A stretch of DNA of 64,000 bases, taken from positions 1 through 64,000 of the forward strand of contig CAIOZY010000010.1 of NCBI GenBank assembly GCA_903862935.1, read 5' to 3'. Position numbers and translations under genes: made by a program. Numbering within the stretch: the stretch's first letter is position 1; every line of letters begins with the position of its first letter. The stretch comes from an uncultured Opitutaceae bacterium (GTDB taxonomy: Bacteria; Verrucomicrobiota; Verrucomicrobiia; Opitutales; Opitutaceae). The notes under the pieces were generated by a model. The model was not told the DNA's origin. It saw nothing but the letters and a program-made list of their open reading frames with translations, and did not search any database. Shown here piece after piece: positions 1,068 to 42,429 of the stretch.

Positions 1068-2003
1068 ATGAGCGTAGAATTTGAGACGATTGCCTTCAAG
1101 GGCTGGCCCCATGCGCTTCGCATGTCCAACGGCACGATCGAGCTGATCGCAACGCTGGACGTGGGACCCCGCATCCTGTCGTACACGCGGGCGGGGGGCC
1201 TGAACCCGTTCAACGTCTACGAGGACCAGGCCGGCGGGGTAGGGGAGCCGGTCTGGAGAAACCGCGGAGGGCATCGGCTGTGGCTGTCCCCCGAGGCCCC
1301 GGGATTCAGCGATTTTCCAGACAACCATCCGGTTGCCTGGGAGAAGCTGGGGGAGACGGGTGTTCGACTGACGCCGGCCCCGGAGACCGGTCCCGGCTTC
1401 CAGAAACAGATCGACATTGTGCTTACGCCGAAGGGCTCCGGTGTGACCTTGACCCACCGCATCACGCGGATCGGAAAGACCCCCTGCCGGGCGGCCCCTT
1501 GGGCCCTGAGCGTCATGGCTGCCGGCGGGGCGGCCATCATTCCCCAGCCCCCCCTGGGCGTCCACCCCCGGGACCTGCTGCCGAACCGGCGGTTGGTGAT
1601 CTGGCCCTACACGGACCTGACCGACCCCCGCTACCACTTGGGCCCGCGGTACATCACGCTGCGCCAGGATGCCGCCGCGAAGCCGACCAAGATCGGACTC
1701 GCCCTTGAGCCCGCGTGGGCGGGATACCTTCTGAAGCAGACCCTCTTCCTCAAGAAGTTCCCGTGGCTCCCCGACGCCGAGTTTCCGGACTACGGGTGCA
1801 ACATCGAGGTCTTCACAAACGCCCGGATGCTCGAGTTGGAGAGCCTCGGGCCGATGAAGACCCTCGCGCCCGGGGAGAAGAGCGAGTTAAAGGAAGTCTG
1901 GGACCTGAAGGTTGACGTCCCCGAACTCGATCCCCGCGACGAGGCCGCCCTCGATGCCTACTTTTCGGCCCGCGGCATCCCCGCCTCAATTGGGGCGCCC
2001 TGA
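1068..2003 (+). CDS. DUF4380-type aldose-epimerase-like protein
   Basis: A 311-residue cytoplasmic protein without a signal peptide. It resembles the DUF4380 / galactose mutarotase-like superfamily: an all-beta protein starting with a sheet around 'LDVGPRILSY', with a Trp-Leu-Ser-Pro-Glu element near residue 73. Family members are predicted sugar mutarotases or carbohydrate-binding beta-sandwiches, but few are characterised. It sits directly upstream of suyAB, has a candidate operator 75 bases upstream, and is followed by a 94-base gap holding a second operator. By analogy with YihR, the mutarotase of E. coli SQ clusters, it may equilibrate alpha- and beta-SQ after SQase action. That role is inference; the fold call is moderately secure. 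Confidence 0.65.
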   Translation: MSVEFETIAFKGWPHALRMSNGTIELIATLDVGPRILSYTRAGGLNPFNVYEDQAGGVGEPVWRNRGGHRLWLSPEAPGFSDFPDNHPVAWEKLGETGVRLTPAPETGPGFQKQIDIVLTPKGSGVTLTHRITRIGKTPCRAAPWALSVMAAGGAAIIPQPPLGVHPRDLLPNRRLVIWPYTDLTDPRYHLGPRYITLRQDAAAKPTKIGLALEPAWAGYLLKQTLFLKKFPWLPDAEFPDYGCNIEVFTNARMLELESLGPMKTLAPGEKSELKEVWDLKVDVPELDPRDEAALDAYFSARGIPASIGAP

Positions 2004-2053
2004 CCCCGCCGCGAGGCCCTGAAACATTTTTTCACTTGCAGTTCCGTGTTTTT

Positions 2054-2067
2054 TTTCGCAATCGTAA
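2054..2067 (+). promoter_or_regulatory. candidate WTTCG-N4-CGAAA operator before suyA
   Basis: Sequence TTTCGCAATCGTAA, a perfect left half and one mismatch in the right half with the same 4-base spacer as the other copies. It lies 31-44 bases before suyA inside an AT-rich patch, a typical place for a repressor site overlapping a promoter. It would control the suyA-to-ROK operon. Confidence 0.5.
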
Positions 2068-2097
2068 TAATCCTTAGATTCCAACCCGCCAAAACCC

Positions 2098-2376
2098 ATG
2101 ATCTCATTCCTCATGCATGAAAAACAGGACACGGTCGGCGTCGCCGTCGTGGACCTCAAGGCCGGCCAGACCGTGCAGGGACGCTCCCTGCATGGCAATG
2201 CCTCGCCGAAGGTGAAGGTCCTGAGCGACATTCTGCTCGGCCACAAGATCGCCCTCGTTAACTTCAAGCCGGGTGACACCGTCATCAAGTACGGCGTCGA
2301 CATCGGCAAGATCGTCGCGCCCGTCAAGAAGGGCGAGCACGTCCACGTCCACAACCTCAAGACCAAGCGCTGGTAA
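2098..2376 (+). CDS. suyA: (R)-sulfolactate sulfo-lyase, small (SAF-domain) subunit
   Basis: A 92-residue SAF-domain protein of the UxaA N-terminal type (motifs '[11 protein letters not shown]' and '[16 protein letters not shown]'). In SuyAB enzymes this small subunit pairs with SuyB to eliminate sulfite from 3-sulfolactate, giving pyruvate. Altronate and galactarate dehydratases usually carry this domain fused to the catalytic part in one chain of about 500 residues; here the two parts are separate genes 13 bases apart, as in known suyAB pairs. It is the first gene of a tightly spaced operon running to the ROK regulator, and has a candidate operator just upstream. The enzyme is expected in the cytoplasm. 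A Met at residue 6 is an alternative start. The sulfonate substrate rests on SuyB similarity and on the neighbouring sulfoquinovosidases and dsr genes. Confidence 0.87.
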
Positions 2377-2389
2377 TCACTTTTTCCCC

Positions 2390-3553
2390 ATGAAACTTCC
2401 CACCTTTCTCGGCTATCGCCGCGCAAACAAGCGGGTAGGCGTCCGCAACCACGTCATCATCCTTCCGGTTGATGATATTTCAAACGCGGCCTGCGAGGCC
2501 GTCGCCAACAACGTCAAGGGCACAATGGCCCTCCCGCACGCCTACGGGCGCCTGCAGTTCGGCGAGGACCTAGATCTGTTCTTCCGCACGATGATCGGCA
2601 CGGGCTCCAACCCGAACGTCGCCGCCGTTATCGTCATCGGGATCGAGCCAGGCTGGACGCAGCGCATCGTCGACGGGATCGCCAAGACCGGCAAACCTGC
2701 GGCGGGCTTCTCGATCGAGCGCCATGGCGACCTCCAGACAATCGCCTCCGCCGCCCGCAAGGCCAAGGAGTTCGTTCAGTACGCGAGCGAGCTGCACCGC
2801 GTTGAATGCACCGTTGACGAGCTGTACGTCTCCGTGAAGTGCGGCGAGTCCGACACGACGACCGGCCTGGGCTCCTGCCCGACTGTTGGCAACGTGGTCG
2901 ACCGCATCTGCGCCATGGGCGCGATCGCCTCCTTCGGCGAAACGACAGAGCTGACCGGCGGCGAGCATATCGTGAAGGCCAAGGCCGCCACGCCTGCCAT
3001 CGCCAAGGAATTCATGAAGGCCTGGGACAACTACTCGGACCTGATCATGAAGGAAAAGACCGACGACCTCTCGGACTCCCAGCCGACCAAGGGCAACATC
3101 CGCGGCGGACTGAGCACGATCGAGGAGAAGGCCATGGGCAACATCGAGAAGCTTGGCCGCCGGACGAAGTTTGTCGGTTGCCTCAAGCCGGCCCAGGCCC
3201 CGACCAAGAAGGGCCTGTGGTACATGGACACCTCCTCGGCAGCCGCTGAGGCCGTGACCCTGTGGGCCGCCTCGGGCGCCGTGGTGCACCTGTTCCCGAC
3301 CGGACAGGGCAACATCATCGGCAACCCGATCGAGCCCGTCATCAAGCTGTCGGCCAACCCGCTCACGTGCTCCACGATGAGCGAGCACATCGATCTGGAC
3401 GTTTCGGCGATCCTCCGGGGCGAACTGAGCATCGAGCAGGCTGGAAAGCAGCTCCTCGACCTCACGCTGCGCACCGCGAGCGGCCGCCTCACAGCCGCGG
3501 AGGCCCTCGGCCACCGCGAGTTCGTGATGACCAAGCTATACCGGAGCGCCTGA
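2390..3553 (+). CDS. suyB: (R)-sulfolactate sulfo-lyase, large subunit
   Basis: A 387-residue UxaA-family catalytic subunit; the Met start is chosen 13 bases after suyA and gives the usual SuyB length of just under 390. It follows the SuyB pattern I recall closely: '[18 protein letters not shown]' near the start, '[11 protein letters not shown]', '[10 protein letters not shown]', '[12 protein letters not shown]', '[20 protein letters not shown]', '[12 protein letters not shown]' and the end '[17 protein letters not shown]'. The Cys in KCGESDT and nearby acidic residues are probable metal/active-site elements. Product: pyruvate plus sulfite from sulfolactate. Sulfite release fits the dsr operon 32 kb downstream. 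Automatic pipelines would probably call it altronate dehydratase; the split architecture and context argue against that. Confidence 0.9.
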
Positions 3554-3645
3554 GGGCTCCAGGCCCTCGGCTCTGCCGCAAAGTGTCAACCGAGGCTTCA
3601 TCCCTGGCGTCCTGCGTTGAGGCAGGCGCCGGGGAACGAATCGGG

Positions 3646-3674
3646 GAAGCCGCCGCGGATTCCGCGGCGGCTTC
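3646..3674 (+). other. perfect 13-bp intergenic hairpin between suyB and larA-like gene
   Basis: A perfect inverted repeat: 13-base arms at 3646-3658 and 3662-3674 around a 3-base loop, very GC-rich. It lies in the 177-base gap between suyB and the racemase gene. No T-run follows, so it is not a classical intrinsic terminator. A second small CCCC-TAA-GGGG stem follows at once. A likely role is RNA stabilisation or processing that sets suyAB expression apart from the distal genes. Confidence 0.6.
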
Positions 3675-3730
3675 AGCCCCTAAGGGGGGCGGCCCGTTCT
3701 GACGTCCCGGACGACCGGGTTGCTGACGCG

Positions 3731-4993
3731 ATGAGAATCGAGGTTCCCTATGGACGGTCGACGCTCTCGGCCCGCGTTCCCGACGCGGTCGGCGTTGACG
3801 TGATCGAGGCCCCTGAGACGCCGGGCGCCCCCGATCCCGTCGCAGCTGTGCGCGGGGCGCTCGCAAGGCCGCTGGGAGGGGCCGACTGGACGAAATTTAC
3901 CGGGGCAAAGACGGTGGCGATCGCGGTCAACGACAAGACCCGCCCCGTTCCCCACGACCAGCTCCTGCCCCCGCTCATGGAGCGCTTGGCCGCGATCGGA
4001 ATCCCCGACTCGGCCGTCACGTTCTACATTGCGGTCGGCACCCACCCGCCGATGGGCGAGGAGGAATTTCCGGCAATCCTTCCGGCCTGGGTCCTCAAGC
4101 GATACCGCGTGGTGTCCCACGACTCTGAGAACCCCGCGCTGCTCGTGAACCTGGGGACTACCTCGGGAGGGACCCCCGTCATCACGAACCGGGCCTATGC
4201 GGAGTCGGACTTCAAGATTGTCGTCGGCAACATCGAGCCGCACCAGTTCGTGGGGTTCTCCGGCGGGGTGAAGACAGCCGCGGTGGGGCTCGCCAGCCTC
4301 GAGACCATCAACCGCAACCACGCGCTGATGAGCCACCCCAAGTCCCGGCTCGCCGAGTACGACTCGAACCCCGCCCGCCAGGACGTTGAGGAGATCGGCC
4401 AGAAGATCGGGATCCACCTGGCCCTCAACGCGATTCTCAACCACAAGCGCCAGATCGTGCACGCGCTGGCCGGCGATCCCAGGGCGGTGATGCGCTCCGG
4501 AATCCCACTATCAAGGCAGGTCTGCCAGGTCGCCGTCCGCGGCCGCTACGCGCTCATCGTCTCCTCTCCCGGCGGGCACCCCAAGGACATCAACGTCTAC
4601 CAGTCCCAGAAGGGGCTGGCGCACGCCGCCCTAATCGCACGGCCCGGTGCCACAGTGATCCTCGCTGCGGCGTGCACCGAGGGCAGCGGCAGCCCGCACT
4701 ACGAGGAATGGATGGCGGGCAAGACCTCCTACGCGGATGTCCTCGAGCGCTTCCGTTCCGAGGGCTTCCGGATCGGGCCGCACAAGGGTTTCCAGATCGC
4801 CCGCGATGCGTCGAACCTGAGGCTCCTGCTGTGCTCCCAGATGGACGAGCGCCTGGCCCGGGCGCTGCTCCTGAACCCGGCCAAGAGCCTGCAGGAGGCC
4901 CTGGACCTGGCGCTGCCCGCGCTGAAGCCCGGGGAGCGGGTCGGCGTCCTGCCCCACGCCTCCTCAACGGTCCCCTATCTCCAGGACAGCTGA
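3731..4993 (+). CDS. LarA-family nickel-pincer 2-hydroxyacid racemase, predicted sulfolactate racemase
   Basis: A 420-residue member of the LarA family (lactate racemase, about 424 residues). LarA enzymes racemise short 2-hydroxyacids with a nickel-pincer nucleotide bound to a lysine. The key positions are present with near-identical spacing: Asp68 and Arg71 in DKTRP, His105 in GTHPP, Lys181 in SGGVK (pincer attachment) and His197 in NRNH. The loop differs from lactate racemase: GTHPPM replaces GTHRP and the Lys181 surroundings are [10 protein letters not shown], so another substrate is likely. Oxidation of the SLA derived from SQ is expected to give (S)-sulfolactate, whereas characterised SuyAB acts on (R)-sulfolactate. 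A racemase between suyAB and the transaldolase would solve that mismatch. The cofactor genes larB/C/E are not in the window. Family call strong; substrate inferred. Confidence 0.8.
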
Positions 4994-5088
4994 CCAAAGA
5001 AGCCCACCCCTTTTTCCTAAACCACCGCCGAACCGGCAAAAAGCCGGGGCGGCCCAACCTCACAAACCCAAAAAAAAGAAAACCACCC

Positions 5089-5736
5089 ATGAAACTGTTC
5101 CTCGACACAGCAGACGTTGCCCAGATCCGCGAAGTTTGGTCCTGGGGGATCATCGACGGCGTCACCACCAACCCGACCCACGTGTCCAAGACCGGCCGCA
5201 AGCCGGTTGAAGTCTACAAGGAGATCTGCGACATCGTTGACGGTCCGATCAGCATGGAGACAATCGGCCTCAAGGCCGACGAGATCCTGGTCGAGGGCCG
5301 CCAGCTTGCGAAGATCCACAAGAACGCGGTCGTCAAGGTTGTGAACACCCTGGAGGGCCTGAAGGCCGTCAAGCAGTTCACCAAGGAAGGGATCAAGACG
5401 AACGTCACCGTGACCTTCTCGCCGCTGCAGGCACTGCTCGCCGCCAAGGTCGGAGCCGGTTACATCAGCCCGTTCGTCGGGCGGCTCGACGCGGTTGGCC
5501 ATGTCGGCATGGATCTCGTCCGCCAGATCAAGACGATCTACGGCAACTACGGCTACAAGACCGAGATTATCGTCGCCGCTGTGCGCCATCCGATGCACGT
5601 GCTGGAGGCGGGCCTCGCGGGGGCCGAGGTCTGCACGATGGGCTACGACGTCATCAAGCAGCTCTACAACCACCCGCTGACCGATCTCGGGATCGAGATG
5701 TTCCTCAACGACTGGAAGAAGGTTCCGAAGGCCTGA
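5089..5736 (+). CDS. FSA/TalC-type transaldolase, predicted sulfofructose transaldolase
   Basis: A 215-residue class I aldolase of the short transaldolase / fructose-6-phosphate aldolase subfamily. Start: '[10 protein letters not shown]'; then 'GVTTNPT' and the Schiff-base lysine Lys83 in 'VVKVVNT', equivalent to Lys85 of E. coli FSA. In the sulfo-TAL pathway, such an enzyme moves the dihydroxyacetone unit of 6-deoxy-6-sulfofructose to glyceraldehyde-3-P, giving fructose-6-P and 3-sulfolactaldehyde. The gene lies between the sulfolactate racemase and the GAPDH-like gene, exactly where the enzyme making SLA belongs. No YihT-type sulfofructose-1-phosphate aldolase or KDSG aldolase is seen, which favours the transaldolase route. 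An FSA-like release of free dihydroxyacetone is possible. Its leader is A-rich without a clear Shine-Dalgarno sequence. Confidence 0.82.
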
Positions 5737-5791
5737 GCCGGAGAGGCCTCAATCCGAGAATCTCAAAACCAAACGAAACAAACGCTCTAAC

Positions 5792-6817
5792 ATGAAGAAG
5801 ACAAAAGTCGCGGTGGTGGGTTACGGAACGATCGGCCAGCGCCTGGCCGACGGAGTCAAGCTGCAGGGGGACATGGAGCTGGTCGGCATCGCCGACGTGG
5901 CCCCGACCCTCGCCCTGCGGGCTCTCCAGGAAAAGGGCATGCCCTATGACCTGTACTGCCCGGTGCCGGCCAACGTGCCGCTCCTGGAGGCGATCGGGAT
6001 CCCGGTCAAGGGGACGCTCGAGCAGCTGCTCAGCCAGGTGGATGTCGTCCTCGACGCCACCAGCGCCGGCATCGGCGCCAAGAACAAGGAGCTGTACAAG
6101 AAGTACAACCTGAAGGCCGTCTTCCAGGGCGGCGAGAAGAACGAGGTGGCCGACGTGTTCTTCCACGGCTACGCCAACTACGAGAAGGGCGTGGGACAGC
6201 AGTTCCTGAAGCTGACCTCCTGCAACACGACAGGGCTCATCCGCGCGATTGACTGCCTGGACCGCGCCTACGGCGTGGCCAAGGTCGCCATCACGATCAT
6301 CCGCCGCGTGGCGGATCCGGGCGACTACAACCGCGGCCTCACCAATGCCCTGCAGATGGACAAGGCCCCGAACCACCAGGCCGTCGACCTGATGACCATC
6401 ATGCCCCACGTCCAGGCGACCGGACTGCTCGTCCACACCCCCGTGACGCACGGCCACATCATCACGATCCTGGCGACCCCGAAGAAGAAGATCAACAAGG
6501 AGCAGGCCCTTGCCGCCTTCAAGCAGCACCCCCGCATCCGGGTCGTGCGCCTGGCCGACGGCTTCCTCGGCAATGCCTCGCTCTTCAAGTACGCCCGCGA
6601 CCTCGGAAATCCCCGCGGCGACATGTACGAGATCGGGCTGTGGGATGAGAGCATCACGTTCTCCGGCGACGACATCATGTTCGCGATCAACATCCCGCAG
6701 GAGTCCGTGACGATCCCCGAGACGATCGACGGGATCCGCGCGGCGATGAAGATGCAGACCGACCGGCTCGAGGCCGTCGGCGAGACGAACAAGTACCTCG
6801 GCATGAAGGTTAGGTAA
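5792..6817 (+). CDS. archaeal-type (type II) GAPDH paralogue, predicted phosphorylating sulfolactaldehyde dehydrogenase
   Basis: A 341-residue protein of the archaeal GAPDH family, unusual in bacteria. An N-terminal Rossmann motif GYGTIGQR and an acidic residue in 'GIADVAP' where NADP enzymes carry 'SKTRP' suggest NAD+ use. The catalytic Cys144 in SCNTTGL, Arg171-Arg172 and the His pair in THGH are kept, so acyl-enzyme chemistry with phosphorolysis should work. The segment that in archaeal GAPDH reads SHHGPD, near the substrate-phosphate site, is NHQAVD here (194-199), and the preceding KGPINAI is RGLTNAL. SLA is glyceraldehyde-3-P with sulfonate in place of phosphate. I infer oxidation of SLA to 3-sulfolactyl phosphate, handed to the adjacent PGK-like protein. 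A plain glycolytic duplicate cannot be excluded. No ALDH-type SLA dehydrogenase is present. Confidence 0.8.
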   Translation: MKKTKVAVVGYGTIGQRLADGVKLQGDMELVGIADVAPTLALRALQEKGMPYDLYCPVPANVPLLEAIGIPVKGTLEQLLSQVDVVLDATSAGIGAKNKELYKKYNLKAVFQGGEKNEVADVFFHGYANYEKGVGQQFLKLTSCNTTGLIRAIDCLDRAYGVAKVAITIIRRVADPGDYNRGLTNALQMDKAPNHQAVDLMTIMPHVQATGLLVHTPVTHGHIITILATPKKKINKEQALAAFKQHPRIRVVRLADGFLGNASLFKYARDLGNPRGDMYEIGLWDESITFSGDDIMFAINIPQESVTIPETIDGIRAAMKMQTDRLEAVGETNKYLGMKVR

Positions 6818-6864
6818 GTCCCAACTCCTCCCCCCCGGCCCAAGCCCGGGGGGGATTCCATCCC

Positions 6865-8133
6865 ATGCTCAACGGAATCCACACCCTTGATGACTACGAC
6901 CTGAAGGGGAAAACGGTGCTTTTACGCGAGGACATGAACTCGCCGCTGGACCCCGTCTCCCGTTTACCCAGGGACATCACCCGCATCCGGGAGGCCCTCC
7001 CCACCATCCGGGAGCTCTCCGAGAAGGGCGCCCGCACGGTCGTCCTGATCCACCAGGGAAACGACATCGAGTACCACAGCTTCGGGTCGACCGCGCCCCA
7101 CGCCCGGATCGCTTCGGAGGCCCTGGGCAAGCCCGTGGAGCACATCGACGACGTCTGCGGCCCCGCGGCCCGCGAGAGGATCCGCTCCCTTAAGGACGGC
7201 CAGATCCTGATGCTCGAGAACGTGCGCTGGATGGCCGAGGAGATGACGCTGTTCGAGACGAAGGTTAACCCGACACCGCAGGAGCAGGCGAAGTCGGTCC
7301 TGGTCTCCAGGCTCGCACCGCTGGCGGACCTGTACGTCAACGACGCCTTCGCGGCGGCCCACCGCTCACAGCCGACGCTGGTCGGGTTCCCCGAGATCAT
7401 GCCCTCGGCCATGGGCCGGCTCCTCGAGAAGGAACTCGCCTCACTCAGCCGGCTTCTCACCAACCCTGACAAGCCCTGCCTGTTCGCCCTGGGAGGGGCC
7501 AAGATTCAGGACGCCTTCATGATGATGTCGTGCGTTTTGGAAAGCGGGGTCGCCGACCAGATCCTGACGAGCGGGCTCGTCTCCAACATCATGCTGGTCG
7601 CCAAGGGGGTGCCGATAGGCGGGCCCTCCCGCGATTTCATCAAGAAGAAGAACCTCGAGGAGTACATCGAGGTGGGCAAAAAGATCCTCGCCCGGTTCTC
7701 CGACCGGGTCGTGCTCCCCGTCGATCTCGCCTACGCGGCTGGCGGCCAGCGCCACGAGGTCAAGGTGAGCGACCTGCCCGTCGAGCACCTGCTGGCCGAC
7801 ATCGGCAGCGCCTCGGCGGCCCACTACGCGAAGCTCATCAAGGGGGCGAAGACCGTGTTCTTCAACGGGCCGGCCGGCGTCTTCGAGAAGCCAGAGACCG
7901 AGCTCGGGACCAAGGCCATAGTGACCGCGATTGCCGAGAGCGAGGCCTTCTCCGTCCTCGGCGGGGGCGACAGCATAGCCGCCGTCAACAAGTTCAAGGC
8001 CGCTGGCGGGATCTCCTACATCAGCACCGGCGGAGGGGCCCTCGTGCGGTTCCTTTCCGGAGAGGAACTGCCGATCATCACGGCTCTCAAGAAGGGCGCT
8101 GCAAAATTTCCGTGTGGCAAACTGGTACGGTAG
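6865..8133 (+). CDS. archaeal-type phosphoglycerate kinase paralogue, predicted sulfolactate-forming kinase
   Basis: A 422-residue protein aligning with archaeal PGKs, longer than usual bacterial PGKs (about 390-400). Conserved: 'NDAFAAAHRSQP', 'GGAKIQDA', 'NGPAGVFEKPE' and the 'STGGGA' nucleotide loop, so ADP/ATP binding looks intact. In the substrate basic patch Arg21 is kept, but the motif normally H-x-x-R-P is H63-Q-G-N66-D, losing the arginine that helps hold the 3-phosphate. The motif RADMN is REDMN. This fits a substrate with another C3 group, such as sulfolactyl phosphate, giving ATP and sulfolactate. The gene follows the GAPDH paralogue by 47 bases. Loss of the basic residue in the kinase and remodelling of the equivalent site in the dehydrogenase point to a matched pair. 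Activity is inferred. Confidence 0.8.
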   Translation: MLNGIHTLDDYDLKGKTVLLREDMNSPLDPVSRLPRDITRIREALPTIRELSEKGARTVVLIHQGNDIEYHSFGSTAPHARIASEALGKPVEHIDDVCGPAARERIRSLKDGQILMLENVRWMAEEMTLFETKVNPTPQEQAKSVLVSRLAPLADLYVNDAFAAAHRSQPTLVGFPEIMPSAMGRLLEKELASLSRLLTNPDKPCLFALGGAKIQDAFMMMSCVLESGVADQILTSGLVSNIMLVAKGVPIGGPSRDFIKKKNLEEYIEVGKKILARFSDRVVLPVDLAYAAGGQRHEVKVSDLPVEHLLADIGSASAAHYAKLIKGAKTVFFNGPAGVFEKPETELGTKAIVTAIAESEAFSVLGGGDSIAAVNKFKAAGGISYISTGGGALVRFLSGEELPIITALKKGAAKFPCGKLVR

Positions 8134-8151
8134 AAGGTTATAAAAAACCCT

Positions 8152-9426
8152 GTGAGACGATCCTCGTTTCAGACAGCTGACCTGATCTCTGACATCCTCA
8201 AGCGGGTCCGAGCCTGCGGCGGGATCTCGCGGGTTGAACTCGCACGCGACCTGGGCCTGGCCCCCTCCACGGCCGGGATCTACGTCGAGCGGCTCATCGA
8301 GGCGAAGTTTCTCCTCGAGACCGAGGAGACGACTGGCGACGCGGGTCGGCCGCCGAGGATCCTGCGGCCCAACCCCGAGGGGGGGGAGTTCATCGGGGTC
8401 GACTTCGAGGCGCGCAACATCATGGCGGTTGCGGTTGACTTTGCGGACCGGCCGCTGCGCAACTCCCACAAGTGGATCGAGGAGGGGGACTCCGTCGAGA
8501 AGGTGGTCGCCCACATCGGGGAGGCGATAGAGGAGGTGCTCCCCAAGACGGGAAGCCGAATTCTTGCGATCGGGGTGGGGGTGCCGGGAATCGTGGACCC
8601 GAAAAGCGGCGTGGCGGTTTCCTACAAGTACATCCGCAAGTGGGAGAACGTGACCCTGGCCCAGACCCTCTCGCAGCGCTTCGGCGTTCCGGTCTTTCTC
8701 GAGAACAACGCCCGGTCGATGGCGCTCGCGGAGCTCTGGTTCGGACAGGGCAAGGGGCAGGATGACTTCCTGTGCATCGGCATCCGCAACGGTCTCGGAG
8801 CGGGAATGGTGCTAAATGGCCGACTTTACAGCGGCGCGCACAACGCCGCCGGCGAATTCGGCCGGTGGCGCTGCCAGTCCCTGACGGCCTCGGCCGCCCC
8901 TTGGTTCGCCCCGGTCGCCGCCGAGCACAGCGCAGACGGCCCCGAGCTCCAAGATGTGGCGTCGGTCAGGGCGGTCCAGCAGGCGCTGCAGAACGCCCTG
9001 GCCCAGGGCAAGCGCAGCGTGCTATCGGGCACCAAGCTTCCACTTTCGGTGACGGATGTCGTGGGCGCCTGCCAGCAGCGGGACGCCTTGACGATGCGCG
9101 TCACCACGGAGGCCGCGAACGCCCTGGGATCGGCGATCGGCCAGCTGGCGCTCGTTATCGATCCGGCCAAGATTGTCCTGTCCGGGCCGCTGACGGCGCT
9201 CGGGGAAATGTTTCTCCAGCCCCTGCGTTCCCGGGTGGAGCGGATGCTCAAGCCCTCGGGAACCCGCCCGCCGGAGATCGTCAACTCCACGATGGGGGAA
9301 TTCGGCGGAGCGCTCGGCGCCGCGGCGCTGGCACTGCACAAGTGGAAGCCGGTCCTGGCCTCGCGGGGGCGCCTTGTGGACAAGGCGGGCTCCCCTCCGC
9401 CCAAGTCGCGCCGCACCCGCGGATAA
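8152..9426 (+). CDS. ROK-family transcriptional regulator, probable regulator of the SQ/Dsr regulon
   Basis: A 424-residue ROK protein starting at GTG 18 bases after the PGK gene. An N-terminal winged helix-turn-helix (about residues 5-60, 'ISRVELARDLGLAPSTAGIYV') is followed by the two-lobed ROK sugar-binding domain ('GVGVPGIVDP', 'ENNARSMALAE'). It is clearly not a kinase: the catalytic Asp of the ENDA motif is Asn. The usual GE-x-GH sugar contact reads GEFGR (Arg238 in place of His) and the zinc cysteine cluster CxCGxxGC is absent. An arginine at the ligand position could contact a sulfonate. It is the only regulator in the window near the candidate operators, so it is the best candidate to bind WTTCG-N4-CGAAA and to autoregulate its operon. 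That pairing is inferred. Confidence 0.85.
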   Translation: MRRSSFQTADLISDILKRVRACGGISRVELARDLGLAPSTAGIYVERLIEAKFLLETEETTGDAGRPPRILRPNPEGGEFIGVDFEARNIMAVAVDFADRPLRNSHKWIEEGDSVEKVVAHIGEAIEEVLPKTGSRILAIGVGVPGIVDPKSGVAVSYKYIRKWENVTLAQTLSQRFGVPVFLENNARSMALAELWFGQGKGQDDFLCIGIRNGLGAGMVLNGRLYSGAHNAAGEFGRWRCQSLTASAAPWFAPVAAEHSADGPELQDVASVRAVQQALQNALAQGKRSVLSGTKLPLSVTDVVGACQQRDALTMRVTTEAANALGSAIGQLALVIDPAKIVLSGPLTALGEMFLQPLRSRVERMLKPSGTRPPEIVNSTMGEFGGALGAAALALHKWKPVLASRGRLVDKAGSPPPKSRRTRG

Positions 9427-9477: not shown

Positions 9478-11106
9478 TCAGTCGAACTGGGCCTTGGCGG
9501 GTTCGGCACCGGGCTCCGGCTTTGCAGGAGCGGCGTGGCTCGCCGGGTCGGAGAAGACGTACCCGCGGGCAATCGCCGTGTATGCGGCCACCTGTTCTGC
9601 CTGCCAGGCCTCGTCCTTGCCGAGCTCGGTGGCCATCAGGCGGGCGACGAGCGGGGCTGCCTCGATCGAGACCCGGGCGTTCAGGATCAGCGAGCGCGTG
9701 CGGCGCGCCAGAACGTCCTCGACCGTCCGCGCCATCTCGTTGCGGACACCCCAGACGACCTCCCCCTGCTGGTAGGGAAGGGCCGGGTGCACCTTCTGGG
9801 CGAGCGCCGGGTCGGTCCGGATGAGCTCCCCTAGGGGAAGGGCGTCCGATCCGTAGGGCTGGAGGTTCTTTTCGCGAATCTCGGCCCGCGTCCACCCGTG
9901 GATGTGCATGGTCTCGGTCTGGCAGCGGATGTCGTCGAGCCCTGCGACGGTCTCGGCGTGATCGATCACGTCCTCGGCCATCTTCCGGTAGGTGGTCCAC
10001 TTGCCGCCGGTGATCGTGATCAGGCCGCTATTGCTCACAAGGATCGTGTGGTCCCGCGAAAGGGCCGCCGTGTTGCTCGCGTCGCCGGACTTAACAAGCG
10101 GCCGGAGGCCGGCGAAGATGCTCAGCACGTCGCTGTCCGACGGATCCTTGGCCAGGTAGCGGCGGGCGTGGGACATCACGAACTCGCGCTCCTCGTCCAG
10201 GGCCCGCGGCTCGAGCGACTCGCCGGACACGGGCGTGTCGGTCGTACCGACGACGACACAGTCGCGCCACGGAACGGCGAAGAGCACCCGGCCGTCGGCC
10301 GTCTTCGGGACCATGATGGCGGTGTTGCCCGGCAGGAAGGCCTTGGGCAGCACCAGGTGGATCCCCTGGCTAACCGCGACCAGCCTCTTGCCGCCCTTCT
10401 CGTCGAACTGGCGGATGTCGTCGACGAAGACACCGGTGGCGTTGATGACGGAGCGGGCCTTGATAGTGAGTTCCTCCCCGGACTCCATGTCGCGGGCGAG
10501 GACGCCGGTCACGATTCCCTTCTCCTTTACCAGGCCGACGCAGCGGCAGTAGTTGAGCACCGCCGCCCCGAGCTCGTAGGCGGTCTGGGCGAGATTGACC
10601 GCGAGCCGGGCGTCGTCGAACTGCCCGTCGTGGTAGCTCACGCCTCCGGTCAGGTTCTCGGGCTCGACCGTCGGGATCAGTTCGAGGGTCTCCTCCCGGC
10701 TCAGGACGCGAGAGGGGTTCAACCCGAGCTTTCCGGCGAGCTGGTCGTAGACCTTCATGCCGACTCCGTAGAACGGACCCTCCCACCACTTGTAACTGGG
10801 GATCACGAACGCCATGTCGTGAACCAGGTGCGGGGCGTTGCGGGCGAGCCTTCCGCGCTCCCGCAGGGCCTCGAGAACCAGAGAGATGTTCCCCTGGCGC
10901 AGGTAGCGCACGCCGCCGTGGACCAGCTTTGTCGACCGGCTTGATGTGCCCTTGGCGAAGTCGTCCTGCTCGATCAGCGCAACGCGGTGCCCGCGCGCGG
11001 CGGCGTCGACGGCCGCGCCCAAGCCCGTAGCCCCGCCTCCCACGACGAGGATGTCAAAGGGCTCCGTTGCGGAGCGGATGCGGTCAAGAGATGTGGATCT
11101 TTTCAT
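9478..11106 (-). CDS. glpD: FAD-dependent glycerol-3-phosphate dehydrogenase
   Basis: A 542-residue GlpD/GlpA-type flavoprotein. The N-terminal FAD fold is marked by 'VVGGGATGLGAAVDAAARG', then the DAO-family 'GTSSRSTKLVHGGVRYL' signature; the C-terminal helical DAO_C domain ends near residue 510, followed by an Ala/Pro/Glu-rich tail. It oxidises glycerol-3-P to dihydroxyacetone phosphate at the membrane and feeds electrons to quinone. It follows a sulfoquinovosidase gene on the same strand (63-base gap). Sulfoquinovosyl glycerol cleavage releases glycerol, and the matching glycerol kinase gene is at 53.7 kb. Its place in the SQ locus suggests that the glycerol half of the sulfolipid head group is also used. 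The gene has no candidate operator of its own, so it may be transcribed with the SQase gene. Confidence 0.93.
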   Translation of the reverse strand: MKRSTSLDRIRSATEPFDILVVGGGATGLGAAVDAAARGHRVALIEQDDFAKGTSSRSTKLVHGGVRYLRQGNISLVLEALRERGRLARNAPHLVHDMAFVIPSYKWWEGPFYGVGMKVYDQLAGKLGLNPSRVLSREETLELIPTVEPENLTGGVSYHDGQFDDARLAVNLAQTAYELGAAVLNYCRCVGLVKEKGIVTGVLARDMESGEELTIKARSVINATGVFVDDIRQFDEKGGKRLVAVSQGIHLVLPKAFLPGNTAIMVPKTADGRVLFAVPWRDCVVVGTTDTPVSGESLEPRALDEEREFVMSHARRYLAKDPSDSDVLSIFAGLRPLVKSGDASNTAALSRDHTILVSNSGLITITGGKWTTYRKMAEDVIDHAETVAGLDDIRCQTETMHIHGWTRAEIREKNLQPYGSDALPLGELIRTDPALAQKVHPALPYQQGEVVWGVRNEMARTVEDVLARRTRSLILNARVSIEAAPLVARLMATELGKDEAWQAEQVAAYTAIARGYVFSDPASHAAPAKPEPGAEPAKAQFD

Positions 11107-11169: not shown

Positions 11170-13188
11170 TCAAACCGAGGCCAACGCCATGAGGAGCGCC
11201 TGATCTGCGCAGCCTTGGCGGACAAAGACCGGGGGCTCGCCCAGGGGAGCGGGAATCTTGACGCGTTCCCCGCCCTCGAAGGCCTTCCCGCTCCACAGAT
11301 GGAGCCAGCGGGCCCCCTTCGGCAGGTAGGGCTCCCAGTCGCTGCGCCCGGCCTGGTGGACCGGGGCCACAAGCAGGTCCTGACCGAAAAGGTATTCGTC
11401 CTGGATCGTGTAGGTCTGGGGATCGGATTCGTGGTGCAGGAACAGGGGCCGCTGGAGAGGCAGGCCCGTCCGGGCGGCCTCCGAGGAGAGCTGGCTCACG
11501 TAGGGGGCGAGGGCCGCGTAGACCCTCGTCATCCGGGCGAAGTGCGCGAGGACTCCCTCGTCCTGCCAGAACTGGAAGTTGTCGTCGGGCCGGTTCCCCT
11601 CGTGCGTGCGCATGACGGGCGTGAAGGCCGCCATCTCGGCCCAACGCTGGAAAAGCTCCGGGGTGCGCTTGTTGTCGAACAAGCTCGTGTAGCCTCCGAT
11701 GTCGCTGTGGTGGTAGGCATTTCCGAGCAGCCCCGAGGAGAGAGCTCCGCAGATGACGGTCTGCAGGCCGTCGTGCCGGGTGAAGTCTACCGACTGGTCC
11801 CCGGCCCAAAGCAGCGGACAGTGCGCCTGGACGCCGGTGTAGCCCGCCCTCATGAAGAAAAGGATATCGCCCCGGCGGCCGGCCCCGGCGACCGCCTCGG
11901 CATTCACCTTCGCCCACAGGGTGGGCCAGGCGTTGTGCATCATCATGCCGGGTGCTCCGTTCGCGAGCACGACGTCGGTCGGTTGGTACTCGCCGAAGTC
12001 GGCCATCCATCCGTCCAGCCCGGCGTCGATCATCTCCTGGCGGATGACACGCCTGCTGAACCAGTGGGCCGCCTCTGGATTGGTGAAGTCAACGATCCCG
12101 CATCCGAACTCACCGAAGTCGACCACGTAATCCGCTCCGGTGGCGTTCTTCGCGAGGTAGCCTGCCGCCTTGGCCTCCTTGAAGATCGCTCCATCGCTGC
12201 ACAGGTAAGGGGTCGCGTAGCCCATGAAGCGCACGCCCCGGGCGTTCAGCGAGGCCACCCACGCCTTCGCGTCCGGATAGCGCTTCTCGTTCCAGCTCCA
12301 GTTCCAGAAAAGCCGCCTGCCGAAGGAGGTCTGGCGAATCCCGGCCCAGTCTTCACACCACAGCGCCGAAACGAGGACTCCGCGGTCGCGGCTAAGTTTA
12401 AGGATGCGCTCCGCGTGGTCGGGCCCGTTCTTGAGCCCCAGTATCGCGCCCTTCTGCACCCAGCCGGGAAGCTCCGGCTGGCGGCCGAACCGAGTGGAGA
12501 CGAGCCCGACCAGCTCGACATAGGTCGGCGCGGCAAAAAGCTCGATCCGCTCGGGCACGGCCCAGAACTGAAGCTCGTGGAAATCCCCGTGGCGGAAGTC
12601 GAAGTCGGCGTAGGCGGTCGTCTCGGCGTGCAGGCAATAGTGCTCGGACGACAGGAAGGTCGGCTGGGGATAGTTGGTGTGGTAGTAGTCGCCTCCGGCC
12701 TTACCGTGCACATCTGCTTGCCAGGTGATGTAGGTCGACTTGTCGCGGCCGACTCCAGGCTCGGAGGTCCACAGCGGAAAGTTCCGGCCGCGCAGATCAA
12801 AGTAGGACATTTGTTCGCCGCAGCCCCAAACGTGCTCGTCGGGCTTAGCGGCAACCCGCCACCACAGACGATTTATCGCGGGGGCCGATTTTTCAAACTC
12901 GATCACCGCCCCCGCCTTCTCGCAGGACACCTTGAGGACCAGCTCGGGCTCCGAGGCCGCATCCCGACCTAGATAGACCCTGAGGCCGGCGCCTGCGGGC
13001 TCCGTACGGGCGTGGCGCAACGGCACCCGCTCCTCGACGAAGTCGGCGAACTGGAAATTGCCGTGGTACATCGACACCGATTCGCGGCCCGAACCGACGT
13101 AGCAGCACGGCCTTTCCAGGCTGTGCTCGATCACGGGGCGGCCCGCGTGGACGAGGGCCCAGCTGTTGCGTTCGGATTTGAGTTCCAT
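11170..13188 (-). CDS. yihQ: GH31 sulfoquinovosidase, copy 1
   Basis: A 672-residue cytoplasmic GH31 enzyme similar along its length to E. coli YihQ: 'GCGEQMSYFDLRG', 'TYITWQAD', 'EDWAGIRQTSFGRR', nucleophile in 'GWMADFGEY' (Asp about 397), acid/base in 'WAGDQSVDF' (Asp about 464) and 'SDIGGYTSLF'. The five sulfonate-recognition positions I recall for SQases (Q262-Q288-R301-W304-Y508 in YihQ) read K-E-R-W-Y here, the variant known from Agrobacterium-type SQases. This separates it from ordinary alpha-glucosidases. Without a signal peptide it should hydrolyse imported SQ-glycerol or other alpha-SQ glycosides to SQ inside the cell. It has the same length as the second copy at 20.9 kb, and has a candidate operator 68-81 bases upstream. 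Confidence 0.9.
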   Translation of the reverse strand: MELKSERNSWALVHAGRPVIEHSLERPCCYVGSGRESVSMYHGNFQFADFVEERVPLRHARTEPAGAGLRVYLGRDAASEPELVLKVSCEKAGAVIEFEKSAPAINRLWWRVAAKPDEHVWGCGEQMSYFDLRGRNFPLWTSEPGVGRDKSTYITWQADVHGKAGGDYYHTNYPQPTFLSSEHYCLHAETTAYADFDFRHGDFHELQFWAVPERIELFAAPTYVELVGLVSTRFGRQPELPGWVQKGAILGLKNGPDHAERILKLSRDRGVLVSALWCEDWAGIRQTSFGRRLFWNWSWNEKRYPDAKAWVASLNARGVRFMGYATPYLCSDGAIFKEAKAAGYLAKNATGADYVVDFGEFGCGIVDFTNPEAAHWFSRRVIRQEMIDAGLDGWMADFGEYQPTDVVLANGAPGMMMHNAWPTLWAKVNAEAVAGAGRRGDILFFMRAGYTGVQAHCPLLWAGDQSVDFTRHDGLQTVICGALSSGLLGNAYHHSDIGGYTSLFDNKRTPELFQRWAEMAAFTPVMRTHEGNRPDDNFQFWQDEGVLAHFARMTRVYAALAPYVSQLSSEAARTGLPLQRPLFLHHESDPQTYTIQDEYLFGQDLLVAPVHQAGRSDWEPYLPKGARWLHLWSGKAFEGGERVKIPAPLGEPPVFVRQGCADQALLMALASV

Positions 13189-13334: not shown

Positions 13335-15071
13335 CTAGCCCGGGCGGCGCTGCTCCGGGGCCCCGGCGAAGGCAGGGCGCCGGGCAAAGAGCCAGGCTAG
13401 GGCCAGGGCGATAGTCCAAAGGGTGGCCAGGCCGGGCAGGTAGCCGGCGCTGGCGCCGCCCGTCCGGGCGATCCCGACGGGGGACAGCGTCAGATAGACC
13501 GTCACCAACAGGGCGAGCAGCAGGGTCCCGGCGCTGCGGGCCCAGCGCCACGGGGTTATATCGCAGTGATCGCGCAGGATGGCCTTGTAAGGTGTTGGGC
13601 GGGCGAAACGCTTGCGCAGGGCGAGCATCAAAGCCACCTCGGCGACCCCGAGGATGCCCATGAGGTGGATGAAGTGGATTCCGAGGCGCTGGTCGACTCC
13701 GAGGATGATCACGAACAGGGTGTAAACCACGACATGGGTGAACAGCACAATCTTGGCCGGAAGCGCCCCGACGGAGCGGTCGAAGAAGCCCACGAGCATG
13801 ATCACGATGATCGGCACGTTGAAGAATCCTGTCCAGCGGCGCAGCAGGGCGTAAATCCCGTCGGGCGCGTAGACGAGCAAGGGCGCAATCGCGAGCGAGG
13901 CGACAGCGATCGCCATGCTGGCCCATTTCCCGACTAGGACCAGCTCGCCGTCACTGGCCCGGGGATGCCGCGGCTTGTAGAAATCGAGGGTGAAGAGGGT
14001 CGCCGCGCTGTTGAGCACCGCCTTGAAGTGACTGAGCATGGTGCCGAAAAGGGCCGCGCTGAAGAATCCTTTGGCCCAGAAGGGAAGGAGATCGGCGACC
14101 AGGCGCGGGTAGGCGAGATCGGGCCGGAGCAGGGGATGGGAAGCGTACGCCCGGTACGCGATGATCCCAGGCAGCAGGGACAAGAGCGGCATCGTCAGCT
14201 TCAGGAAACCCATCAGCAGCACGCCTTTCTGCCCTTCGGCGAGATTTCTGGCCGCCATCGTGCGCTGCACGATCGACTGGTTCGTGCACCAGTAGAAGAG
14301 GTTCGCGAAAACCATGCCGGTGAAGACCGTTCCGAAGGGGACCGTGTCGCGCGGACCGCCGACTGCGTTGAGTTTCTCCGGGGCGTGCGCGATTAAGTCC
14401 CGCAGGCCGGCCAGCGCGCTCCCGTGGCCGATGGCCACCAGACCGGCGATAGGGATGATAAGTCCCGCAACCAGGATCGCCGCCCCGTAGATCGTGTCGG
14501 AAACCGCCACCCCGCGCAGGCCGCCAAGGACGGCGTACAGGGCGCCGATCACCCCGGCAGACAGGGCCAGGGCGGTGATTGTCGCCGGGTACGACAAACC
14601 GAGCAGCGTCTGGACCGAAAAGATCTGGTTGAAGGTGATCGCTCCCAGGTACAGCCCCGAGGGGTTCACGACTAGAACGTAGCCGATGATAAACAGTCCG
14701 CTCACCGCCCGGCGCGTGGCCGGGTCGTAGCGTTCCTCAAGGAACTGGGGGAGCGTCGTAAAGCCCCCCCTCAGGTACCGGGGAAGAAAGAACAGGGCTA
14801 GGGCCACGATGGCTACCACAGCCGTCACCTCCCACGATAGGGACGACAGGTTGTGGGCGTACGAGTCGCCGTTGAGGCCCACCAGGGCCTCGAGCGAGAG
14901 GTACGTCAGAAGCATCGAGCCGGCGATGAACCAGCTCGAGAGCCCACCACTCGCTAGAAAGTAGCCGCGCGCCCCGGTGTCGCCGGCTCGCCGGGTGATG
15001 CGGTAGGAAAAAAATGCGACCGCCGCTGTGAAGAGCGCGAAACTGGCGAGGGCGAAAAGGTCGGAATGCAT
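13335..15071 (-). CDS. sodium:solute symporter (SSS/SGLT family)
   Basis: A 578-residue polytopic membrane protein with about 14 hydrophobic segments. Family landmarks: 'YFLASGGLSSWFIAGSMLLTYLS' in the first helices and 'WCTNQSIVQRTMAARNLAEGQKG', the classic SSS motif near residues 275-297. Members import sugars, carboxylates or other small solutes with Na+. It is divergent from the TonB receptor gene (235-base gap) and upstream of SQase 1 on the same strand, so SQ, SQ-glycerol or a sulfonate is a reasonable cargo. Substrate assignment is inference; three MFS carriers in the window are rival importers or exporters. Confidence 0.85.
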   Translation of the reverse strand: MHSDLFALASFALFTAAVAFFSYRITRRAGDTGARGYFLASGGLSSWFIAGSMLLTYLSLEALVGLNGDSYAHNLSSLSWEVTAVVAIVALALFFLPRYLRGGFTTLPQFLEERYDPATRRAVSGLFIIGYVLVVNPSGLYLGAITFNQIFSVQTLLGLSYPATITALALSAGVIGALYAVLGGLRGVAVSDTIYGAAILVAGLIIPIAGLVAIGHGSALAGLRDLIAHAPEKLNAVGGPRDTVPFGTVFTGMVFANLFYWCTNQSIVQRTMAARNLAEGQKGVLLMGFLKLTMPLLSLLPGIIAYRAYASHPLLRPDLAYPRLVADLLPFWAKGFFSAALFGTMLSHFKAVLNSAATLFTLDFYKPRHPRASDGELVLVGKWASMAIAVASLAIAPLLVYAPDGIYALLRRWTGFFNVPIIVIMLVGFFDRSVGALPAKIVLFTHVVVYTLFVIILGVDQRLGIHFIHLMGILGVAEVALMLALRKRFARPTPYKAILRDHCDITPWRWARSAGTLLLALLVTVYLTLSPVGIARTGGASAGYLPGLATLWTIALALAWLFARRPAFAGAPEQRRPG

Positions 15072-20876: not shown

Positions 20877-20913
20877 GAATTGTGGCTTACCGCCACGCCA
20901 CCCCAGAATCCGG

Positions 20914-22981: not shown

Positions 22982-23884
22982 ATGCCCAATTCTCCCAAGA
23001 AGCTGATCCCGGGATCCGCCGGGATCACCGACCAAGAAATGATGAGCCTGATCGCCCTGCCGCTCCCCGAGCTTGAGCGAGCGGCGCGCATCCCCTTCCG
23101 CCTGGTGCCCGACCGCGCCGCGATCATCGAGGAGTTCGCGCAAGCGATCCTATCCGAGATCCGCGAGCACAACCGCAAGGGGGAGCCCACGCGGCTCATC
23201 CTTCCCGTCGGGCCGATCGCCCAGTACCGCCGGGTGGTCGACCTGTCCAACAGCGAGAAGATCAGCTGGAGAAACGTCCACACGTTCAACATGGACGAGT
23301 TCCTCGACTGGCAGGGCCGGCCGGTCCCGACCGACCATCCCCTTAGTTTCGAGGGGTATATGCGGCGCGAGGTGTTTGGCCGCCTGGACCCGCAGATCCG
23401 GATCCCCGACTCCCAGGCCCATTTCCCGCACCCGTTCCGCATCGACGAAATCAGCGAGGCGATCCGCTCGGTCGGAGGGATAGACGCCTGCTACGGCGGC
23501 ATCGGCTACCACGGACACGTGGCCTTCAACGAGCCCCCAATGTCGCGGTGGCACCGGGTCTCGATCGAGGAGCTGCGCCAGTCGAAGACGCGGGTCCTCT
23601 CCCTCGGTGACGACTCGATCCTCGTCCAGAGCATCCACTGCTCCGGGGGCTGCTCGGCGGCGATCCCGCCGATGGCGATCACTCTCGGGTTCGCCGACAT
23701 TCTCGCCTCCCGCAAGATCCGCCTGTACTGCGCCGCAGGCGACCGCCACCGGGCGATCTTCCGGATCGCGGTGGCCGGGGCGGTGACGACCGACTTTCCC
23801 GCAACCCTCGTCCAGGGGCACCCCGACGCCCTGGTCGTCACGGACGCCGCGACCGCGGCCCCGATCCGGGTCGGGCTCGTCTAA
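22982..23884 (+). CDS. NagB-family (glucosamine-6-P isomerase-like) protein, candidate SQ isomerase
   Basis: A 300-residue protein of the glucosamine-6-phosphate deaminase/isomerase family, longer than E. coli NagB (266). Kept motifs: 'NMDEF' (Asp equivalent to D72), His179 and Glu184 in 'GHVAFNEP' (equivalents of H143 and E148), and 'PPMAITLG'. The ring-opening aspartate D141 of NagB is His177 here ('GYHGH' instead of 'NDGH'). The family catalyses aldose-ketose isomerisation of 6-phosphorylated sugars. Because it follows an SQase gene and no YihS-like (AGE-family) isomerase is present, I propose that it converts SQ to 6-deoxy-6-sulfofructose, with the sulfonate in the phosphate site. Alternatives: an amino-sugar deaminase unrelated to SQ, or another aldose isomerase. 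Confidence 0.75.
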   Translation: MPNSPKKLIPGSAGITDQEMMSLIALPLPELERAARIPFRLVPDRAAIIEEFAQAILSEIREHNRKGEPTRLILPVGPIAQYRRVVDLSNSEKISWRNVHTFNMDEFLDWQGRPVPTDHPLSFEGYMRREVFGRLDPQIRIPDSQAHFPHPFRIDEISEAIRSVGGIDACYGGIGYHGHVAFNEPPMSRWHRVSIEELRQSKTRVLSLGDDSILVQSIHCSGGCSAAIPPMAITLGFADILASRKIRLYCAAGDRHRAIFRIAVAGAVTTDFPATLVQGHPDALVVTDAATAAPIRVGLV

Positions 23885-36812: not shown

Positions 36813-36844
36813 GGCACCAACCCCCTAAGAAAAAGGACCATCCC

Positions 36845-37903: not shown

Positions 37904-37936
37904 ACGGCCCCTCAAACCCTAGACCCACACATCCCT

Positions 37937-38254: not shown

Positions 38255-38302
38255 GCCCCCGGGCCTCGCCGATCCCGCCCCCAGACCCCAGCCCAAACCA
38301 CC

Positions 38303-38488: not shown

Positions 38489-38505
38489 TCTGCCCGCCTT
38501 CCCCC

Positions 38506-41189: not shown

Positions 41190-41190
41190 C

Positions 41191-42428: not shown

Positions 42429-42429
42429 C

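Follow-up and report, generated by a model that had tools for sequence, protein, structure and literature searches.

Sulfoquinovose is produced at about 10 billion tons per year (PMC10755693, PMC12890257), and in the sulfo-transaldolase (sulfo-TAL) pathway a transaldolase and a sulfoquinovosidase are encoded in one cluster and sulfolactaldehyde (SLA) is the proposed branch intermediate (PMC12890257). Oxidation of SLA has been attributed to members of the aldehyde dehydrogenase (ALDH) superfamily, the known SLA dehydrogenases being GabD/SlaB ALDHs (PMC10599462). A second described system is the tandem sulfofucolytic-sulfolactate sulfolyase pathway of Paracoccus wurundjeri, in which SLA is converted to (S)-sulfolactate, inverted to (R)-sulfolactate by SlcC/ComC and cleaved to pyruvate and sulfite by SuyAB, and in which the enzyme that oxidises SLA is reported missing (PMC12421959). 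Here we describe a window, i.e., the whole analysed stretch of 64,000 nucleotides from an uncultured Opitutaceae bacterium (contig CAIOZY010000010.1, assembly GCA_903862935.1), in which two adjacent + strand genes lie in a sulfoquinovose operon, one glyceraldehyde-3-phosphate dehydrogenase (GAPDH)-II-like (GAP; 5792-6817) and one phosphoglycerate kinase (PGK)-like (6865-8133). ALDH-type oxidation of SLA conserves no ATP, and SLA is the sulfonate analogue of glyceraldehyde-3-phosphate. We consider it likely that the GAP-PGK pair is the SLA-oxidising step of a sulfo-transaldolase type sulfoquinovose pathway, acquired horizontally and displacing a GabD-like ALDH.

Like the sulfo-TAL pathway, the window has a sulfoquinovosidase and a transaldolase within one cluster; unlike it, the window has a GAPDH/PGK-like pair for the ALDH and SuyAB in the same operon. 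The route from SLA to pyruvate and sulfite proposed for the window is that of P. wurundjeri, except that the operon encodes a LarA-like protein and lacks both SlcC and ComC (PMC12421959). ATP-yielding coenzyme A (CoA) routes, SqwD/SqwKL for sulfoacetaldehyde and HpfX/HpfYZ for 3-sulfopropionaldehyde, likewise conserve energy on oxidising a sulfonate aldehyde, but they do so through a CoA thioester and an ADP-forming ligase, and on other substrates, whereas the window proposal is an acyl phosphate (PMC12890257). An earlier reading of this DNA, made from the letters alone (the sequence-only reading), had known of no energy-conserving step in sulfoglycolysis, which these CoA routes show to be too broad. 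For an acyl-phosphate route for SLA, no description was found in a literature search that covered few subscription journals and no bioRxiv. Known protein families would here do an unusual and probably new energy-conserving job, i.e., the window would be a new sulfoglycolysis variant pointing to a wider new module. If true, the route would yield one extra ATP per sulfosugar and entail a new enzyme activity, GAP-PGK would be a testable candidate enzyme type where SLA oxidation is reported missing (P. wurundjeri) or the fate of SLA is unknown (Caproiciproducens), and the family would also point to a widespread ATP-yielding inositol route.

The pair in a sulfoquinovose operon

The operon occupies 1068-9426 of the + strand in the order mutarotase-like gene, SuyA, SuyB, LarA-like gene, transaldolase, GAP, PGK and ROK, with gaps of 13 to 180 bases. 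GAP and PGK are intact open reading frames (ORFs) of 341 aa and 422 aa, proposed to encode a phosphorylating sulfolactaldehyde dehydrogenase and an ATP-forming sulfolactyl-phosphate:ADP phosphotransferase, respectively. GAP scores 399 bits against NF003251 (cut-off 185) and 301 against TIGR01546 (cut-off 232.9), and PGK scores 367 bits against PF00162 (cut-off 27), covering model positions 1-379 of 379. The closest solved structures are archaeal, namely 1cf2 for GAP (257 bits) and 2cun for PGK (324 bits), with 1vpe reaching only 229; we take 2cun to be the Pyrococcus PGK and 1vpe the Thermotoga PGK. The sequence-only reading had placed an archaeal-type GAPDH and PGK in a suy/transaldolase operon free of ALDH genes, and both points hold, with the two ORFs at these coordinates, over the family cut-offs and nearest to archaeal structures, and with no ALDH among the operon's genes. 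None of those genes is an ALDH-type SLA dehydrogenase (an SLA reductase was not searched for), and the sole ALDH-family matches within the 64 kb fall in an ORF at 59353-60630 that was read as proA.

The strongest support for a role in SLA oxidation comes from three related genomes that have the same sulfo genes, with an ALDH after the transaldolase and without this GAPDH. Out of 251 further family genomes searched, three have SuyB at 81-89% identity (G060, G525 and G375, whose sulfo loci are labelled L105, L106 and L107), and 14 more have SuyB homologues at 29-35% only. At E <= 1e-20, the window-type GAPDH was detected in 0/251 of these genomes and was absent from the other 386 of the 387 phylum genomes drawn. 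The gene order in L105 and L106 is mutarotase, SuyA, SuyB, Ldh_2, LarA, transaldolase, ALDH and ROK, the last three end to end, and the window counterpart is transaldolase, GAP, PGK and ROK, with the GAP-PGK pair exactly in the ALDH slot. Genes common to the window and these two loci are 70-89% identical (LarA 72%, transaldolase 76%, ROK 76%, GlpD 84%); GlpD follows the operon in both, and the sulfoquinovosidase (78%) is present in L106, no GH31 being found in L105 before the end of the fetched stretch. In L107, an ALDH 72% identical to that of L106 lies directly after the transaldolase, with ROK upstream. The ALDH of these clusters is GabD/SSADH-like (TIGR01780, 542 bits, under the cut-off of 646), and the gene pair that the sequence-only reading would have had sought in other suyAB clusters is present in 0/3 of them. 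Because GAP-PGK occupies the ALDH position of the related sulfo clusters, we assign the pair to SLA oxidation, the simplest account being a non-orthologous displacement; we infer that GAP-PGK replaced the ALDH.

Elsewhere in the window's genome, contig C25 carries a separate operon of class I gap with pgk and tpi, and the pair is therefore distinct from the glycolytic one. Separate glycolytic gap and pgk genes, which the sequence-only reading had wanted looked for, are thus present, and the possibility that the pair is the genome's only gap and pgk was ruled out. No IolD over the cut-off was found in this genome (225 against 715; control over cut-off in 3/14), and inositol catabolism by this genome was rejected as the job of the pair. 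With a canonical gap-pgk-tpi operon elsewhere and no IolD over the cut-off, neither glycolysis nor inositol accounts well for the pair. Outside the 64 kb, the genome has six further ALDH-family matches, and the sulfo ALDH of the related clusters has no orthologue in this 95.6% complete genome, the best match being a 48% identical GabD-like ALDH on contig C36 that sits among genes judged unrelated by eye.

A duty as an extra glyceraldehyde-3-phosphate dehydrogenase/PGK, speeding lower glycolysis from the fructose 6-phosphate and triose phosphates of the operon, would agree with the family names and overall similarity of the two proteins. We regard it as very unlikely given the complete gap-pgk-tpi operon elsewhere, the departure of both proteins from true GAPDH and PGK at family-wide positions and the neighbours of their relatives, which point to malate (both below). 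In addition, the transaldolase pathway needs a glyceraldehyde-3-phosphate acceptor (PMC12890257), and draining it would presumably be counterproductive.

In the SLA pathway that we favour, the transaldolase (5089-5736, + strand; TalC/FSA type, TIGR00875 293 bits, cut-off 245.95; 76% identical to that of L106), a proposed 6-deoxy-6-sulfofructose transaldolase, would split sulfofructose to give (S)-SLA. The GAPDH-like enzyme would form a thioester on Cys144 and pass hydride to NAD+, with Pi releasing sulfolactyl phosphate, and the PGK-like enzyme would transfer the phosphate of this intermediate to ADP, so that ATP and (S)-sulfolactate are formed. The most likely net reaction is SLA + Pi + NAD+ + ADP -> sulfolactate + NADH + ATP. 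The LarA-like enzyme would then invert (S)-sulfolactate to (R)-sulfolactate, which SuyAB would cleave to pyruvate and sulfite. We infer the substrates and the ATP formation of the pair from features that are seen directly, i.e., sequence, synteny, family membership, the missing ALDH orthologue and the separate glycolytic genes.

It is also conceivable that SLA is oxidised by the pair with no net ATP, the GAPDH-like enzyme hydrolysing the thioester or acyl phosphate and the PGK being vestigial, since the formation of ATP is deduced from sequence. The PGK is intact, is present in 79/80 of the relatives' loci and clusters, in the trees described below, with the loci that GAP also joins, and R21, R40, R121 and R167, which we take to be the basic-patch arginines, are found in the window and in 69/69 aligned relatives. 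Retention of this kind makes a vestigial PGK the least probable of the alternatives that we weighed.

Residues, relatives and origin of the pair

Archaeal phosphorylating GAPDH (TIGR01546) and PGK share with the window proteins their family, the catalytic Cys and sequential acyl-phosphate chemistry; unlike them, the window has Q196/A197 for His-Gly, has lost Arg66 of PGK and has separate glycolytic copies. Catalytic Cys144, which the sequence-only reading called intact, is seen in the alignment within SCNTT and is common, together with R171 and R172, to the window, 79/79 aligned relatives and 4/4 archaeal GAPDHs. Positions 194-199 of the window GAP are N194-H195-Q196-A197-V198-D199, failing the archaeal SHH motif at 194-196, where the archaeal proteins have SHHGPD (SHHAKD in 1b7g). 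The H-x-x-R position of PGK, whose basic residue presumably binds phosphate, is N66 in the window, Arg in the genome's own glycolytic PGK and in 1vpe, and Lys in 2cun. These residues are as the sequence-only reading gave them, but its further step, taking them as a sign of a sulfonate substrate, fails: Q196 is common to 79/79 GAP relatives from non-sulfo settings, and position 66 among 69 aligned PGK relatives is Asp in 52, Ser in 15, Gly in 2 and Arg in none. With the same changes family-wide, sulfonate specificity was rejected as a conclusion from the phosphate-site residues. The core of that reading, i.e., SLA to sulfolactyl phosphate to sulfolactate with ATP, is well supported by the ALDH slot of the related clusters, without its anion-site argument.

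Because Q196 is present in all of these relatives where His is present in 4/4 archaeal proteins, the window GAP is placed by sequence in a paralogous subfamily of type II GAPDH and not with glycolytic GAPDH. K140, L141, T142 and others are likewise shared by the window and the 79 relatives, unlike all four archaeal GAPDHs, and N194 is not peculiar to the window, position 194 being Ser in 67 of the relatives and Asn in 11. Residues found only in the window GAP at positions more than 85% conserved among relatives are A7, I153, N180, L212 and T289. The GAP alignment comprised 79/80 loci after a length filter of 320-420 aa, with L078 dropping out, and the PGK alignment 69 loci after a filter of 380-460 aa.

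These relatives come from a scan of a species-genome collection with the window GAP, which gave 413 relatives, the best 80 of which (72-82% identity) were examined. The best 80 are from Bacillota, Spirochaetota, Chloroflexota and Atribacterota, plus one Kiritimatiellia metagenome-assembled genome (MAG) and one unclassified MAG, and in 44/80 loci the flanks of the GAP start exceed 7 kb on the upstream side and 8 kb on the downstream side. Neighbours were counted with tblastn (E <= 1e-15) using L009 or window proteins as queries. IolD is found in 46 loci and IolE in 47, while 54 loci have a LarA homologue and 26 have malic enzyme. The N-part of transketolase is present in 47 loci and its C-part in 45, the latter count possibly including related E1-beta subunits. 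Thirteen of the 80 loci have none of IolD, IolE, transketolase, LarA and malic enzyme. In the Clostridia, a frequent arrangement runs GAP, PGK, transketolase N, transketolase C, IolB, IolD, IolE, IolG and LarA. In L009 (Caloramator quimbayensis), IolD, IolE, IolG and LarA pass their models, the latter as malate racemase LarAH6 (NF052593, 592 against a cut-off of 500), and IolB, malic enzyme, PGK and both transketolase parts match their own models under cut-off.

The neighbouring transketolase, malate racemase and malic enzyme, together with both fumarase parts beside the pair in L007, suggest that the usual substrate of the family is probably malate semialdehyde, the carboxylate analogue of glyceraldehyde-3-phosphate. 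In such an inositol route, transketolase would cut 2-deoxy-5-ketogluconate to malate semialdehyde, GAP and PGK would convert this to D-malate with ATP, and malate racemase and malic enzyme would complete the pathway. The stereochemistry of 2-deoxy-5-ketogluconate matches both transketolase and D-malate, and the L/D assignments of malate and sulfolactate are likewise general background. No paper on a transketolase/malate-semialdehyde inositol route was found in the literature search described above. Operons for myo-inositol that also encode a split transketolase, GAP-PGK, a malate racemase and sometimes malic enzyme were seen at L009:8717-20073 and in L011, L016, L017, L023, L025, L026, L027 and L052. 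Neither IolC nor IolJ is among the genes identified in the L009-like operons (the rest of those genomes was not searched), and these operons probably encode an undescribed inositol route that yields ATP by way of malate semialdehyde.

The sequence-only reading had an archaeal glycolytic pair recruited directly, and the source is instead a bacterial GAP-PGK module, with IolD or IolE at 48/80 loci. The window groups with the Atribacterota loci L005 and L007 in both the GAP tree (SH-aLRT 85) and the PGK tree (SH-aLRT 100), which were quick searches without bootstrap in which long archaeal branches were flagged. As both trees group the window with the same two loci, GAP and PGK were probably transferred together. 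In L005, transketolase parts and malic enzyme lie next to the pair. The G+C content at third codon positions is 94 for GAP, 89 for PGK and 85-88 for the other operon genes, and given this local base composition the transfer was not recent or the donor was of similar composition. In outline, a family whose usual work would be on malate semialdehyde in transketolase-type inositol operons would have supplied the pair, which would then have displaced the GabD-like ALDH; the pair in the window resembles a side branch of this bacterial family, gained by horizontal transfer and serving the sulfonate analogue.

Several observations weigh against this account. The sulfo setting of the pair is known from one genome only: SuyA, SuyB, the window transaldolase and GH31 are found in the flanks of 0/80 of the best of the 413 relatives, where the sulfo ALDH has one match, at 30%. 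The anion-site residues do not separate SLA from malate semialdehyde, and N180, found only in the window, replaces the His of 78/79 relatives. That SLA is the substrate of the related clusters' ALDH is itself deduced from sequence, and this ALDH is closer to the ordinary SSADH structure 3jz4 (479 bits) than to 8c54 (440 bits), which we take to be the RlGabD SLA dehydrogenase. The window transaldolase scores 163 bits against the sulfofructose enzyme BmSF-TAL (8bc3) and 254 bits against the transaldolase 1vpx. No sulfoquinovose-sulfofructose isomerase was assigned among the scanned window proteins, which are not all of the window's ORFs. The 48% identical GabD-like ALDH on C36 could oxidise SLA, and the cofactor gene larC was not found (next section).

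Alternatively, the pair may still act on the substrate of its ancestors, be it malate semialdehyde or a related carboxylate aldehyde, with its sulfo operon setting incidental and SLA oxidised by an unlinked ALDH such as that on C36. The anion-site residues of the inositol-type family and the presence of the C36 enzyme agree with this, but no IolD over the cut-off is found in the genome, no transketolase pair is among the operon's genes, GAP-PGK sits exactly at the sulfo ALDH position of L105/L106 and the neighbours of the C36 ALDH appear unrelated by eye, and we therefore hold an unchanged substrate to be unlikely. Taking the pair as the SLA-oxidising step, we lean slightly towards a broader idea of an "analogue glycolysis" module, in which GAPDH-PGK paralogues make ATP from aldehydes with another anion replacing phosphate. 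The inositol route would be its common form and the window its sulfonate form, combined with a LarAH5 racemase and Dsr sulfite reduction.

Inversion of sulfolactate and the fate of sulfite

The final steps would need SuyAB and a change of configuration. SuyA (2098-2376, + strand), the small (R)-sulfolactate sulfo-lyase subunit with a SAF domain, matches PF08666 at 27 bits (cut-off 21) and is 77-89% identical in L105-L107. SuyB, the large subunit (2390-3553, + strand), matches PF20629/PF04295 and is 64.5% identical to a split UxaA-family pair of Cupriavidus pinatubonensis; that match, in strain HN-2, lies near hpsN/hpsO and is annotated only as 'UxaA family hydrolase'. SuyAB is attributed to C. 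pinatubonensis JMP134 in a review (PMC12890257), and the separate small SAF and large subunits, with high identity to the SuyB of a known user, support the predicted SuyAB assignment.

SLA from sulfosugars is the (S) form, the SuyAB substrate is (R)-sulfolactate, and the known inversion is by SlcC/ComC (PMC12421959). The window operon has the LarA-like hydroxyacid racemase (3731-4993, + strand), which passes the model of the malate-racemase group LarAH5 (NF052595, 529 bits, cut-off 462; 532 for that of L106) and has the malate racemase Mar2 (6d6z, 248 bits) as its closest solved relative. Of the malate racemases LarAH5/Mar1 and LarAH6/Mar2 (PMC7583248), the window protein thus falls with the first and the L009 LarA with the second; unlike LarAH5/Mar1, its proposed substrate is sulfolactate. 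The authors of that study considered malate possibly non-native for Mar1, with a KM of 55 mM (PMC7583248). Sulfolactate is an attractive candidate substrate of LarAH5, which would make this enzyme the (S)->(R) racemase. LarAH5-type racemases lie inside sulfolactate sulfo-lyase operons in the window and at L106:6386-7648, with a LarA homologue, not scanned with the models, at L105:12356-13624; this suggests sulfolactate as the native substrate of the LarAH5 (Mar1) group.

LarC (PF01969), needed for the LarA cofactor, was found in 0/4 sulfo genomes including that of the window (control in 6/14), making the racemase step doubtful. A search of the genomes of 24 hand-chosen loci among the 80 (23 genomes) found LarC in 17 and not in 6, five of these being Spirochaetota. 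The genomes of L036, L042, L045, L068, L082 and L007 (five Spirochaetota, one Atribacterota) have a LarA homologue beside GAP-PGK with no LarC found. There may be another source of the nickel cofactor, or LarA may work otherwise. The Ldh_2 of L106 has as its best model the L-sulfolactate dehydrogenase NF040650 (265 bits, under the cut-off of 500). In L107, where no LarA was found, Ldh_2 and a D-3-phosphoglycerate dehydrogenase-type protein, both under model cut-offs, lie between SuyB and the transaldolase and would fit a ComC/SlcC pair; the best match to the ComC-like protein in the window's genome is 35%.

A Dsr locus (DsrA, DsrB, DsrM, DsrK, DsrO and DsrP; 35289-43614, + strand) has B, M, K, O and P over their cut-offs and DsrA at 328 bits, under 393, and is a plausible sink for the sulfite released by SuyAB. 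DsrB passes its cut-off in 4/252 family genomes, namely that of the window plus G060, G525 and G447. In G060 and G525 it shares a contig with SuyB at a distance of some 22-24 kb, and none is over cut-off in G375. Dsr thus accompanies the sulfo cluster in 3/4 genomes, ALDH-type and GAP-PGK-type alike, and it offers no reason for the change to GAP-PGK. A single organism may couple the breakdown of sulfoquinovose to sulfite respiration.

Other genes of the window and further loci

The operon's first gene (1068-2003, + strand) is mutarotase-like, of TTE1925 type (NF052227, 280 bits, under the cut-off of 550), and its 70% identical counterpart in L105/L106 immediately precedes SuyA. A KduI/IolB-family cupin at L105:7974-8732, directly before the mutarotase of an ALDH-type sulfo cluster, is a candidate for the sulfoquinovose isomerase; in the window, the gene at 371-826, which precedes the mutarotase, encodes a cupin of a different kind. 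The last gene encodes a ROK-family regulator (8152-9426, + strand; PF00480, 150 bits), with a 76% identical gene right after the ALDH in L105/L106. Promoter and terminator scans were near shuffle level (2 against a mean of 0.9, and 9 against a mean of 7.4).

On the - strand, a glycerol-3-phosphate dehydrogenase-like protein (9478-11106; NF008899, 311 bits, under the cut-off of 360; 84% in L105/L106) would handle glycerol freed from sulfoquinovosyl glycerol. It is followed by the YihQ-type GH31 sulfoquinovosidase (11170-13188; NF007746, 949 bits, cut-off 553; nearest structure 5ohy, 924 bits) and a sodium:solute symporter (13335-15071; NF007790, 633 bits, cut-off 401) that may take up sulfosugars.

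Plasmid-borne bacterial type II GAPDHs were rejected as close kin of the window GAP, all 37 records being below 60% identity and at most 36% in full-length rows. The plasmid loci L127 and L130 have type II GAPDHs (34-36% to that of the window) near a multicopper oxidase, L130 also near a heavy-metal ATPase, and these are more distant relatives, which may have a metal-resistance role. In the Spirochaetia loci L046:302-5610, L067:6490-13014 and L068:45-7276, the neighbours of GAP-PGK include a fucose-isomerase-like gene and an aldolase of HpaI/GarL type, which may point to a third substrate of the family. A Dehalococcoidales MAG has GAP and PGK as one 761-aa frame (L078:9826-12111). Further along the window itself, a second YihQ-type GH31 (20911-22932, + strand; NF007746, 908 bits, cut-off 553) is followed by a NagB-like protein at 22988-23884 (116 bits, under cut-off).

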